DNA of 64,000 bases, taken from contig BGKB01000156.1 in the NCBI GenBank assembly GCA_003116975.1, positions 62,001 to 126,000 of the forward strand. Reading direction: 5' to 3'. The notes beneath the pieces are model-generated. The model did not search any database. It saw only the letters and a program-made list of their open reading frames with translations, and was not told the DNA's origin. Position 1 is the stretch's first letter. Each line of letters begins with the position of its first letter. Shown one piece after another: positions 41,463-46,766 of this stretch. Position numbers and translations under genes: made by a program. This DNA comes from Aurantiochytrium sp. KH105 (lineage: Eukaryota; Sar; Bigyra; Thraustochytrida; Thraustochytriidae).

Positions 41463-44400
41463 ATGAGCAGCAAGGCCAACTCGCGACGGGCAAGTCGACG
41501 AGGTCTGTTGCTGTCGCGAAGCAGCATTCTCGCGGGGCTGGCGCGATTGCTCAACGAGAGCAGGGCAGACGTCGCACGCGAAGACGCAGAGGACGACAAC
41601 GAAGAGGACACCGACGAGCTTGCCGGCACCCAGGAGACATCTCTTCGACTCGAGACACTGCAACTCGTTGCCCGCGACGACGGTGGCGTGATCAAGAGCC
41701 CGGATGATCTTCTTTCGCAGGTGCTCCAAGATCGAGAGCTCTGGAATATCCTTCGCCGGAATCGTTCGCTTGAAGCATTGCACCTCGCTCGTAGCGTGCT
41801 CTCTGCCAACGTGACCGCGCAACTGTCAAAAACGCTGCGCGCAAGCCGTGGACCCGCCTCTGTTAATCTGGAGGGAGCTCAGCTAACCAGTGTGCGCGCC
41901 CTGTCATCGCTACTGCAAGACGCCCAGCGCGGTGCTGCGTGCCAAAGTTTAAATCTCGCCTCGGTGTACACCTCTGCAGGTCAGGCTCCCTTCAAGGTAC
42001 TGTCTGGACGCGCTTCAACCGTTTGCGTTGGACCCGGTCGAACCCGCATCAATTTTCATGGAGCTTTTACGACCGTGGCTCTCAAGGAGATGGCAACCCT
42101 GCGGACCGGAAACCGCAGCTTTTATTACGAGGTCAACCTTGCTGGTTGGCCCTCCGAAGCCTCTTGGGCTGATATTCGTATTGGTTGGACCGACACCTGG
42201 TGGGTAGCAACTACATTCGAGGATGCCACGCGGTCAAAAGGCGGCGCTGGCGTCGGTGACAACCTCTATAGCTGGGCGTTCGATCCCTTTCGAGCCCGCG
42301 CCGTTGTGGACAATACGGAGGCCAGCTTCGGGGCGCACTGCAAAACTGGAGACGTAATTGGCTGCTATGTCGATCTTAGCGCCAAAGTCATCCGATTCAG
42401 TGTCAATGGCGTGTGGGATCTGCCGTTTGGCACCGCTTTCCAAGACTTCTCGCTCTGGAAAGGCATCGTTCCCGCTCTCACGGTCGCCTCGGCACGTCAC
42501 TATGCCTCTTCAGTGGAGGTCAACCTCGGCCCGAACTTTGCTTATCCTCCAGACCGCGCAGCCGCACCAATTGCTGAATGGTTGCAACGCCAAAAAGACA
42601 GTCTCCTGCGCAGCGCACTCCAAAAAATGGCAGAAAGACGCACAAATAGGAGCCTGCACTCTTTGCTGCTTTCGGGTCTCTCGTTCTTGCAGAATCGTCA
42701 GCGTCCGCACAGTGTCCGATATCTCTGCCAGGCCTTCCAAGGACTTCGGCATCTGGATCTCTCAAATTGCAAGCTTGGCGACGGTGGATGCGCATCGCTC
42801 TGCCGAGAGCTTTCAGACGGGCTCCCTGGTCTCCTCACACTGGATCTTTCGTCCAACGAGTTAACCTACAAAGGAGCGAAGAAACTTTCGAGAGCACTCT
42901 TGCACAGCGGTATCAAGTATCTCGATTTGTGCAGCAATCAGCTCGCTTTCACCGGAGATCGCGCCCGAGCGCTCGAGCAGGGTCCAGCTGCAGATGCCTC
43001 GGAACTGGAGCTCGAGTGGACATCCATCGTGGGCCCAGGCACTCAACTTGCTGTAATTGACCTGTCATGGGCCGAAATTGACGCCATCTCAGCCTGTGCT
43101 CTCATGTCGAAGCTCGCCACCAACGATACAATACTAGGCCTCCGTCTTGATGGAAATCCGCTCACGGGACAGGTTCTTTCGTCCCTGGCCCAGATGCTTC
43201 GGGGAAACCGTACCTTGCTTCATCTCAGTTTGGTTTCCGCCTCGATCTCAGGCGATTGGAACTTGCTTTCCCAGCCACTCTTTGACATCTCAGAACCAAC
43301 ATGCAGCGTTCTGCAGGCTCTCGATCTTTCGGGCAACCCGATATGCGCCGATGTCTTTGCAGATGTCGACGCTTTTCTCTCGGGCCAAAGTGCTCTCAGA
43401 CGTCTCAGTGTCGCCAAGGTCGCACGGGATCATGATTTGCAACGCCAAAGATCAGCCAAGAAGAAAGCCGAAGCCGCACAGCGCCTGGTGCGAGCTCTGG
43501 CAACTTCCTTGCCCACTGTACAGCTTTCGCTAAGCATTGAATCATTCTCGCAGGCGCAAAGCTTGGGAAGCGCGCTTGGGACCCAAGCGGGGCTCGCTGT
43601 TAAACAGCTCGAGCTTGCAGGTACGGTGCCGTTGCTAGATACCGTGCTTCAATCTATTGCCGAGGACGCGCCTGCGGCTCTTTGCAGGCTAGCTGTCCGC
43701 GTGCAAGCGAGCTCCAACGATGATTCGCTTCCTTGGAAAGGACTCTGCGATGTGCTCGAGGCACTGCAGCTCGACGTTCTCCGCATTGAGGGCAGTGGGG
43801 ACCACGATAGCCTATCAAGCGTGAACGCGTCTCGAGATCTTTTTGTGGAGAGTCTCGCACGAAGTGACACGCTTCACATTTTCAGTATTGCAAAGGCCTC
43901 CTCGACTCTGCGCATCATTTGGGAAGCTTTGCTCGACGCTTTCGCCGCCAGTTCGAGCCTCAAGCATGTGCGAATCGAGAATTGCAGCCTTCGAGCAGGC
44001 TCCATGGCTTTGCTCGCGCGTCTTGTCCGAGGTACGACGCCAATTTCATCAATTAAATTTGCACGAGGAAACGAAGCGTCTCGTGCCGCGGAGAGCCTCA
44101 TTCGTGACTTGCTGAAGGTCTCGACGAGAGCGCGCCCTCGCCGCTGCCGCGAGCTCCTCTTACACGGAAGATACCCGGATCTTGATGCTTTTAGACTTAC
44201 AGACTTGGGGTTGGGTTTGGTCGCCCGTGATCTTCCTCTGCTTGGCGCCCTCCTGAGCTGGGTCAGACATGAGGTTCTCGGCCACAGTCGCGGTCCGCTC
44301 GAGATAACAAACACGCTTGTCTTGGACGGCTCCAACGCAGGGAGAGTGGAGCAAGATTCTGGTCGCCTCGATCTCGAGCAAAACACGATGGAAGAACCTC

Positions 44401-46766
44401 TGGTGCTTGGTGAAGATCTCGTCTTCCAAGGCCAACTGACTATTTCGAACTGGCGGAGCGACATCAGATTCGCTCCTCCGTTACAGGGTATGCGCCGCTC
44501 CTGGCGTGCCATTGGCCTCCATTTTATTGACTGTCCTCAGTTGACTAGTCTTCCACGTGGTCTCGAGGTCGCAAGCTTGGTCGTCCGAGGCTGCCCTGCG
44601 CTCACCACTCTGCCGGAAGATCTTCGCGTGTGGACGATGCTCGTTTTGGAGAATGTCCCAAAGCTCGAAAGGCTCCCTCTTCAGATTGACGTGGATCACC
44701 TCGAAGTTCGAAATTGCGAAGCTCTAGAAAGTGTCATTCACGTTCGCGTTCGCGATACTCTAGTCCTTTCCCAGTGCGACAAGCTGACGAGTTTGCCGGG
44801 AGGCATGCATCTGAACAAGCTTGAGATTACAGAATGCTGGAATTTGCGCTCGAACGTCGAGACCGCGCATGTCCAAAAGCAACTTTGCTTGCGCTCGCTG
44901 CCTGTGCGCTGTCTCTGTGAGGGTCTTGAGCTGCAAGACTGCTTGTTGGACGATTGTCCTCAGCTGGAGACCCTCCCTCCTGATCTGGAGGTCTACGGAT
45001 CTTTCAAGTTGATTCGTTGTCCACTCGTGGAAGCCGTGCCAAGTGGCGTGCGCGCAGAAATTATTTCGCTCGAGTCTCTTACTGCGCTTACGGGAGTGCG
45101 TACCGGTGTCTCGGCACAGCATAAACTTCTTGTCGCAGACTGCCCTGCGTTGGGGTCGCTGCCTGAAACCATTTTGAGCGCAGGGCGGCAGCACGTGGAA
45201 ATTCGAAGTTCGGGTCTCCAAGCCTTTCCCTGTGCGCCCGAGCTCTTGTCCTGTCACATAATGCAATGCGCCGAGTTGCTCGAGTTGCCGTCATCGTTAC
45301 GAGTCAAATTTGAGCTTCGCCTCGAGCAGTGCGGTATTCTGCAATTGCCTGAGTCTCTTCAAGTTGGCAGTCTGCGCGTCTTTCAGTGCCTTAACTTGAT
45401 GGAAATCCCTCCTCGTGCCTATTGCCGAGGTAACATGATCATCGACTCGTGTCCGAGTGTGGAAGAGCTGCCGGACGTCCTCAATTTGCGCGGCTCATTG
45501 GGCCTTCGCAAGCTGCCTTCGTTGCGAAGTCTGCCCGACAATGTGCGCGCTCACGCCAGAATCGATATCCGGGATTGCACGCACCTGGAAAAACTTTCGG
45601 AGCGCATGCGTGCTGCTAGCCTCGTGCTTGAAGATAATCCCGAGCTATGGCTCATTCCGGAATCCACGCGGATTGCGTCAAGCATTCAAACTCGAAACTG
45701 CAGCTCACTTCACAGCATCCCAGACAGTGTGCTGAGGAACGTTCAGCGCGTTGTCGTGGACGAGGCATCCCCGATCGGCCGCGATGCAGACTTGGAGTTC
45801 CTCGAGGCCCGATGCGCCGCATTGCAGACGAAGTTGTACATTAATGTGACTGACGATGAGGACGAGGATCGAGACACGGAACATGAGCGATTGGATGAGG
45901 CTGTGGCGTATTGGGAGACGCACGCTGGCGTGACACCCGAGCTCGAGCTGGAAAGCGAGCTGGACAGCTTTTACCACTCGTCCGTTCTTGGTTTTCTGAA
46001 TCTGCTGCGTCGAAGCGCAGAGTTTCGACGGCCTGATCTTCGTGAGGGCCTAGCTCAGCGGGTCGTGGAGCTTTTGCGCATTCTCAATGAGAACCCTGAT
46101 GGTGTCCGTGAAGACTTGCTGTCACGCATTTCGGATGCCATCGATTCATGTTCGGACAAGCCTATCTGGGCTCTCAATGACATGTATTTGATGACACTTA
46201 TTATCAGGGCCCGAGGTAACCGGGACGCTCTTCGCTCGCTTGGGAAGCGCGTTATGCGACTGCAAATCGTACGCGATCAGGCAGCACAGCATCCTGGCGC
46301 CGATCAAGACGACGTGTGTGTATACCTTCGTTTTGAGATTTCGCTGCGCGAGTCGCTCGACTTGCCCGTGTCCTCGGTCGCTATGCTCTATCGTACCTTT
46401 GTGACGGTGACCCCTGAGGAGATTGAGAAGGCTCGCCAGGCAGCGCTTGGGGTGAGCCAAGCCGAATTCGAGACGTGGCTTGGTGCTTGGCCGGAGTGGG
46501 AGCGGCAATTGCGAGCAGAGGCAGCAGCGACAATTCGATACGAGACCCTGGATGCGGAAGTCCTCTCCCGGCGCTCGAGTCTCCGAGCCTTTAGCGGCGA
46601 ACCGATGGATCATCCCGTTATGGTGGCGCGACGCGGGCCTTGGGAATTATCCGAGTTGCTCGATCGCTGGGTCGTGACAGGACTCGACTTTGCCAATGTG
46701 GCCCTGGAACCTTCTGAGTTTATCCGCAGCCTGCACCGTGCCTTGCCGTACGAAACCCGAAAATGA
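41463..46766 (+). CDS. SPRY - leucine-rich repeat - NEL-type E3 ubiquitin ligase-like protein
   Basis: A 1767-residue protein. A SPRY domain (about 182-362) shows SFYYEVNLAGW, DIRIGWTD, LYSWAFDPF and VIRFSVNGVWD. Ribonuclease-inhibitor-type leucine-rich repeats follow (about 425-910, LRHLDLSNCKLGDGGCASLC). LPX-type repeats come next (about 1019-1432, such as CPQLTSLPRGLEV and ALTTLPEDLRV). The C-terminal domain (about 1480-1730) matches the NEL E3 ligase fold: SVLGFLNLLRRSAEF, the CxD motif SCSDK with the presumed catalytic Cys1563, then LRFEISLRESLDLPVSSVAM and FETWLGAWPEWERQL. Family knowledge: NEL ligases take ubiquitin onto that Cys and are known mainly as secreted effectors of proteobacteria. 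A eukaryotic SPRY in front is unusual. The start at 41463 avoids a repeat-encoded stretch; ATG 41220 is possible. Confidence 0.83.
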   Translation: MSSKANSRRASRRGLLLSRSSILAGLARLLNESRADVAREDAEDDNEEDTDELAGTQETSLRLETLQLVARDDGGVIKSPDDLLSQVLQDRELWNILRRNRSLEALHLARSVLSANVTAQLSKTLRASRGPASVNLEGAQLTSVRALSSLLQDAQRGAACQSLNLASVYTSAGQAPFKVLSGRASTVCVGPGRTRINFHGAFTTVALKEMATLRTGNRSFYYEVNLAGWPSEASWADIRIGWTDTWWVATTFEDATRSKGGAGVGDNLYSWAFDPFRARAVVDNTEASFGAHCKTGDVIGCYVDLSAKVIRFSVNGVWDLPFGTAFQDFSLWKGIVPALTVASARHYASSVEVNLGPNFAYPPDRAAAPIAEWLQRQKDSLLRSALQKMAERRTNRSLHSLLLSGLSFLQNRQRPHSVRYLCQAFQGLRHLDLSNCKLGDGGCASLCRELSDGLPGLLTLDLSSNELTYKGAKKLSRALLHSGIKYLDLCSNQLAFTGDRARALEQGPAADASELELEWTSIVGPGTQLAVIDLSWAEIDAISACALMSKLATNDTILGLRLDGNPLTGQVLSSLAQMLRGNRTLLHLSLVSASISGDWNLLSQPLFDISEPTCSVLQALDLSGNPICADVFADVDAFLSGQSALRRLSVAKVARDHDLQRQRSAKKKAEAAQRLVRALATSLPTVQLSLSIESFSQAQSLGSALGTQAGLAVKQLELAGTVPLLDTVLQSIAEDAPAALCRLAVRVQASSNDDSLPWKGLCDVLEALQLDVLRIEGSGDHDSLSSVNASRDLFVESLARSDTLHIFSIAKASSTLRIIWEALLDAFAASSSLKHVRIENCSLRAGSMALLARLVRGTTPISSIKFARGNEASRAAESLIRDLLKVSTRARPRRCRELLLHGRYPDLDAFRLTDLGLGLVARDLPLLGALLSWVRHEVLGHSRGPLEITNTLVLDGSNAGRVEQDSGRLDLEQNTMEEPLVLGEDLVFQGQLTISNWRSDIRFAPPLQGMRRSWRAIGLHFIDCPQLTSLPRGLEVASLVVRGCPALTTLPEDLRVWTMLVLENVPKLERLPLQIDVDHLEVRNCEALESVIHVRVRDTLVLSQCDKLTSLPGGMHLNKLEITECWNLRSNVETAHVQKQLCLRSLPVRCLCEGLELQDCLLDDCPQLETLPPDLEVYGSFKLIRCPLVEAVPSGVRAEIISLESLTALTGVRTGVSAQHKLLVADCPALGSLPETILSAGRQHVEIRSSGLQAFPCAPELLSCHIMQCAELLELPSSLRVKFELRLEQCGILQLPESLQVGSLRVFQCLNLMEIPPRAYCRGNMIIDSCPSVEELPDVLNLRGSLGLRKLPSLRSLPDNVRAHARIDIRDCTHLEKLSERMRAASLVLEDNPELWLIPESTRIASSIQTRNCSSLHSIPDSVLRNVQRVVVDEASPIGRDADLEFLEARCAALQTKLYINVTDDEDEDRDTEHERLDEAVAYWETHAGVTPELELESELDSFYHSSVLGFLNLLRRSAEFRRPDLREGLAQRVVELLRILNENPDGVREDLLSRISDAIDSCSDKPIWALNDMYLMTLIIRARGNRDALRSLGKRVMRLQIVRDQAAQHPGADQDDVCVYLRFEISLRESLDLPVSSVAMLYRTFVTVTPEEIEKARQAALGVSQAEFETWLGAWPEWERQLRAEAAATIRYETLDAEVLSRRSSLRAFSGEPMDHPVMVARRGPWELSELLDRWVVTGLDFANVALEPSEFIRSLHRALPYETRK

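Follow-up and report, generated by a model that had tools for sequence, protein, structure and literature searches.

A SPRY and leucine-rich repeat gene of Aurantiochytrium sp. KH105: a probable NEL-type ubiquitin ligase with a U-box-like tail, from a host family of 16

The window examined here is a stretch of 64,000 nucleotides from the thraustochytrid Aurantiochytrium sp. KH105 (contig BGKB01000156.1, positions 62,001 to 126,000). The product of one long gene within it is very probably a ubiquitin ligase of the NEL type, a member of a host family of 16, with a front end that would select substrates and a U-box-like C-terminal tail. An initial annotation, made from the letters of the window, had described the product as a SPRY and leucine-rich repeat (LRR) protein ending in the NEL domain of bacterial effectors. 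That description of the SPRY-LRR-NEL order was right but incomplete, as it missed both the 16-gene family and the U-box-like end. Judged from its sequence, we take the protein most likely to be a thioester ligase that the host itself encodes and that ends in a U-box-like tail. The gene and its parts are as follows.

41463..46766, + strand: SPRY-LRR-NEL-(U-box-like) gene, a single open frame of 1767 amino acids from the ATG at 41463 to the stop at 46766
42120..42527, + strand: SPRY domain, residues 220-355 (Pfam PF00622, E 2.1e-12)
42648..42956, + strand: first LRR stretch, eukaryotic-type, residues ~396-498 (LRR_6/LRR_1/LRR_8 around residue 428); the limits are rough, being taken from a weak, below-cut-off LRR_Zer-1 match
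44514..45695, + strand: LPX-like LRR solenoid, residues ~1018-1411
45981..46529, + strand: NEL catalytic domain, residues 1507-1689 (PF14496)
46149..46157, + strand: catalytic Cys1563-x-Asp1565 motif
46578..46754, + strand: U-box-like C-terminal domain, residues ~1706-1764

The NEL domain was recognized by Pfam PF14496 at E 2.2e-26, with 93.1 bits against a cut-off of 24. When the last 388 residues were searched against the PDB, the 12 sequences returned up to E 1 were all IpaH, SlrP or SspH. A profile built from 16 family members likewise found 12 sequences at E<=0.1, the best at 8e-29, and because these were exclusively IpaH, SspH and SlrP chains, the NEL identity is far beyond chance. The predicted model (pLDDT 91) has the helical NEL fold and matches solved NEL ligases, SspH2 best. 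The motifs named initially are present, with the CxD cysteine at residue 1563, and the catalytic role of this motif in NEL ligases is described in a review of the family (PMC9320238). As first proposed, LPX-like repeats lie ahead of the NEL domain; they form an LRR solenoid in the model and recur across the family. Such a layout is not universal in bacteria, as the same review includes Ralstonia members without LRRs (PMC9320238). The window protein scored 34.9 of 550 bits with the IpaH_Shig NCBIfam equivalog and 31 of 1113 bits with that of SlrP, and three other family members were likewise far under both cut-offs. The protein is therefore a relative of the domain and no IpaH or SlrP. Toward the N-terminus, the SPRY match reached 47.6 bits against a curated cut-off of 26.3, and LRR_6 was matched near residue 428 at E 2.4e-9, which bears out the SPRY domain and eukaryotic-type LRRs described at the outset.

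Examination of the genome (76.0 Mb, 367 contigs) revealed 32 NEL matches, all above the cut-off, none with an internal stop, and each in a frame of at least 635 residues. The 32 ORFs (open reading frames) pair off into 16 allele-like pairs of 90.6-99.3% identity, the members of each pair sitting on different contigs, and we read them as alleles of two haplotypes. One member of each pair was scanned with Pfam, and NEL was matched at E 6e-21 to 3e-30. The front ends differ: SPRY and LRRs in two genes, SAM and LRR in one, a weak ARM match (E 0.0018, below the cut-off) in another, and LRR_EndoS-like matches in five, one of them above the cut-off. The remaining genes have no front domain over the cut-off, with LPX-like repeats visible, and the ARM-like C201 gene gives no LRR match in Pfam. 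The repeat consensus, L..LP..L.V.G.L.L..C with a period of ~21 amino acids, was taken from 123 repeats in the 16 proteins chosen by their LP motif. Because 29 of the 31 matches to the window gene's LRR in this genome lie in or beside NEL ORFs, as judged by distance, LRR and NEL look like one module here. The remaining two both fall in one 718-residue frame (G000:C26:59241-59918). Two family members, on contigs C31 and C4 (L025:3852-6701 and L035:181-3570), have Cys-rich, weakly membrane-like N-terminal stretches, the C4 gene having 32 Cys among its first 350 residues. This gene and its partner (L035 and L036) lie at the starts of contigs C4 and C55, with the NEL domain ~1.2 kb from the contig end in both copies; no telomere repeat was obvious in the first 240 bases of contig C4.

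Orthologues are present in other sources. Two protein searches gave 17 and 24 matches, the first having scored just the 7999 candidates that shared most words. Among the matches were eight records of Hondaea fermentalgiana, a thraustochytrid (Stramenopiles, Labyrinthulomycetes), entered as Ryanodine receptor, TAO1, leucine-rich repeat protein, Nephrocystin-3, Importin alpha, Tubulin beta, LSm1 and RPP5. The 'Ryanodine receptor' (P0002) is 99% identical to the window protein (1756/1767 residues), with the same length and the same start residue. The frame of the window gene is open upstream to ~41193, and an in-frame ATG in this stretch would add 81 residues; the open frame of the other copy begins only 32 codons ahead of the ATG matching 41463. 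This, together with the shared start of P0002, makes 41463 the likelier start. Three further proteins (P0003, P0004 and P0005) combine SPRY with NEL as the window gene does and cluster with it (99/90). Public names of Hondaea NEL genes are misleading, taken from another domain or wrong (P0002, P0011, P0013, P0014 and P0022: Ryanodine receptor, Nephrocystin-3, Importin alpha, Tubulin beta and LSm1); from their extra domains, the Tubulin beta, LSm1 and Nephrocystin-3 records look like gene models merged with a neighbor. The Pfam NEL call is already attached to public Hondaea records, so the bare domain match can be retrieved by anyone. In full-text searches of an open-licence library, which does not cover subscription papers and in which no query joined NEL with U-box, we recognized no report of catalytic NELs in a eukaryote.

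The 16 genes of this genome and 26 database proteins made up 42 rows that we call Hondaea-type. One database row, P0024, is named Durusdinium trenchii and another, P0033, comes from a marine eukaryote transcriptome source (mmetsp). We count the other 24 as probably eukaryotic because they fall among Hondaea genes in the tree and some have SPRY or ARM domains. The Durusdinium record, a NEL protein under the name of a dinoflagellate, lies on an 11 kb contig and could be thraustochytrid contamination or a sign of wider NEL spread, as perhaps could P0018, P0021 and P0026. Its residues 790-898, after ARM-NEL, match a dsDNA_bind domain (PF01984), perhaps from a fused gene model.

A tree of 77 rows and 258 columns was built from the 42 Hondaea-type and 35 bacterial rows; each of the 16 pairs was represented by one member, and nine copies of Hondaea proteins (among them P0001), seven bacterial loci and one duplicate were dropped beforehand. 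It split the Hondaea-type from the sampled bacterial NELs, which are Pseudomonadota only, with support of 100/98. The domain may have been acquired from bacteria, as suggested initially; the two clades of the tree fit transfer in either direction. The nearest neighbor came from another source for 9 of this genome's 16 NEL genes, and the family is therefore older than the split of those sources. We consider it unlikely, though arguable, that NEL arose in eukaryotes and was taken up by bacteria as an effector. The age of the family and its diversity (mean tree distance 2.1) would fit such an origin, as would a draw of 398 genomes from the phylum of a Pseudomonas, of which 9, that Pseudomonas included, have NEL. 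The bacterial rows, however, are more diverse still (3.08), and the eukaryotic NELs identified by name come from thraustochytrids and otherwise just from Durusdinium trenchii. Midpoint rooting also grouped three short bacterial LRR-NEL rows with the Hondaea side, so that the Hondaea type would come to lie within bacteria; this is a hint that the LRR-NEL type came from bacteria, but a weak one because the branches are long.

The C-terminal ~60 residues adopt a U-box fold in the predicted model. Rows 10-26 of its list of fold matches are Prp19, Ufd2 and LubX U-boxes, PIAS SP-RINGs and spliceosome chains, the last presumably Prp19, and all cover approximately the same model residues. Alignment of the tail with the U-box by hhalign gave 95.7 percent and a score of 45.3; 200 shuffles reached no more than 20.5 and reversal 11.6. 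The CHIP U-box alone gave no significant profile match to the tail. The tail thus appears to resemble the U-box fold. That it is no relative, but a small alpha/beta fold alike by chance or convergence, we regard as very unlikely given the score well above its controls and the U-boxes and SP-RINGs found over the same residues.

Several observations nonetheless weigh against our reading of the gene. Identity to bacterial NELs is low, at 24-30% for 13 named loci (L040-L052). Pfam U-box (PF04564) matched none of 10 single tail fragments up to E 10, and in the PDB the tail profile reaches Prp19 only at E 2, behind four unrelated sequences. U-boxes contact the ubiquitin-conjugating enzyme (E2) through a proline in the second loop; that proline is present in 1 of the 42 rows, with Phe or Leu at its position in 38, and we accordingly call the tail U-box-like and not a U-box member. 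The autoinhibition by the LRR that we propose below would be carried over by analogy with bacterial enzymes.

All 42 Hondaea-type and all 35 bacterial rows of the tree alignment have Cys as the nucleophile and Asp at +2, and the Trp of PEW is identical in 77/77. The first Asp of DDV is D in 41 and E in 1 of the Hondaea-type rows. The ratio of nonsynonymous to synonymous differences (pN/pS), pooled within the 16 pairs, was 0.095 in the NEL part (65 and 212 differences) compared to 0.195 in upstream parts, and NEL was the lower in 13 of 16 pairs (Wilcoxon p 0.002, Fisher p 4e-6). Within pairs, purifying selection acts strongly on the NEL part, and the low ratio speaks for its use as protein. In the parts before NEL of the same pairs, pN/pS gave no indication of an arms race at the front ends. 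Inactive members are known for many enzyme folds, and the NEL fold could in principle be a catalytically dead scaffold retained just for protein binding. Little probability attaches to this, as the catalytic Cys and Asp, the DDV aspartate and the second Trp (42/42) are conserved and the NEL domain is more constrained than what precedes it.

The gene neighborhood is eukaryotic-type, as noted initially: 10 of the 13 flanking ORFs scanned match a Pfam family, mostly a eukaryotic-type one, namely TFIIS_M, IQCH ATP-grasp, calponin homology, CoA-transferase III, beta-CASP, WW with B-box, PQ-loop, AP mu, PUF and VTC with SPX. Although the review of the family describes the NEL catalytic domain from Gram-negative bacteria (PMC9320238), it is barely credible that the assembly was contaminated by bacteria or that it shows a single bacterial gene inserted recently and in isolation; this reading is largely refuted by the 16 two-copy genes on different contigs, the more so with such neighbors, the fusions to SPRY, SAM and ARM-like parts, and the same genes in NCBI Hondaea records.

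From the above considerations we infer how a host-encoded NEL ligase of this kind would act. The front-end domains, here SPRY and two LRR stretches, would select the substrate. The NEL domain would then accept ubiquitin on Cys1563 from a charged host E2 and transfer it to a nearby lysine of the bound substrate, a step that Asp1565 and further conserved acidic residues would assist. Ordinary E2 genes are present in the host, with 49 UQ_con matches when both haplotypes are counted. The U-box-like tail would most likely hold the E2 or dimerize the enzyme. By analogy with bacterial enzymes, the LRR may restrain the ligase until substrate binds; LRR-mediated autoinhibition released on substrate binding is described for bacterial NEL enzymes (PMC12506513, PMC4133400). 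The varied front ends suggest, again by analogy, a set of substrate-specific ligases. RING ligases elsewhere use SPRY or LRR-SAM parts for substrate choice. More tentatively, and with the odds somewhat against it, the family may represent a new class of thioester ligase with two modules, in which a U-box-type domain recruits E2~ubiquitin and passes ubiquitin to the neighboring NEL cysteine, a relay like that of RBR ligases but assembled from unrelated parts. In thraustochytrids the NEL fold would then be a native eukaryotic enzyme class whose substrate readers can be exchanged, rather than a bacterial weapon alone.

NEL ligases are treated as a bacterial family in the review (PMC9320238). With a diverse and conserved family in a eukaryote, one can study the origin of the fold, the workings of a NEL in the cell that encodes it, and possible differences in autoinhibition and E2 choice. 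It also suggests that inhibitors aimed at bacterial NELs could meet relatives in some eukaryotes.

With SspH2, SlrP, SspH1 and IpaH the window family shares the catalytic domain, CxD motif, fold and LPX-like LRRs directly ahead. Those proteins are injected, whereas the window family is host-encoded and has additional SPRY, SAM or ARM-like parts. A U-box-like tail was not seen in the 35 bacterial tree rows, whose tails were compared as groups, and those rows include no named SspH, SlrP or IpaH. The Trp three residues before the shared Trp also separates the two, being present in 42/42 Hondaea-type and 3/35 bacterial rows. The long Pseudomonas NEL proteins noted above for their low identity (L040-L052) are the nearest bacterial sequences in the genome scan and share NEL, CxD and a DEVEVYL stretch, but they form a separate clade, and the two that were checked have 2 LPX-like repeats each. 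The U-boxes of Prp19, Ufd2/E4 and CHIP resemble the last ~60 residues in fold and profile; the tail differs in lying below Pfam recognition, in its replaced loop-2 proline and in its position behind a thioester ligase domain. RBR ligases combine a RING-type module and a catalytic cysteine module in a single protein. The window family would be similar in placing a RING/U-box-type module next to a catalytic cysteine module, provided that its tail binds E2, but its catalytic domain is unrelated and its relay putative. TRIM/SPRY ligases and LRSAM1 read substrates through SPRY or LRR and SAM parts with catalysis by RING; the window family has similar readers on what is probably a ubiquitin ligase, with NEL in place of the RING.
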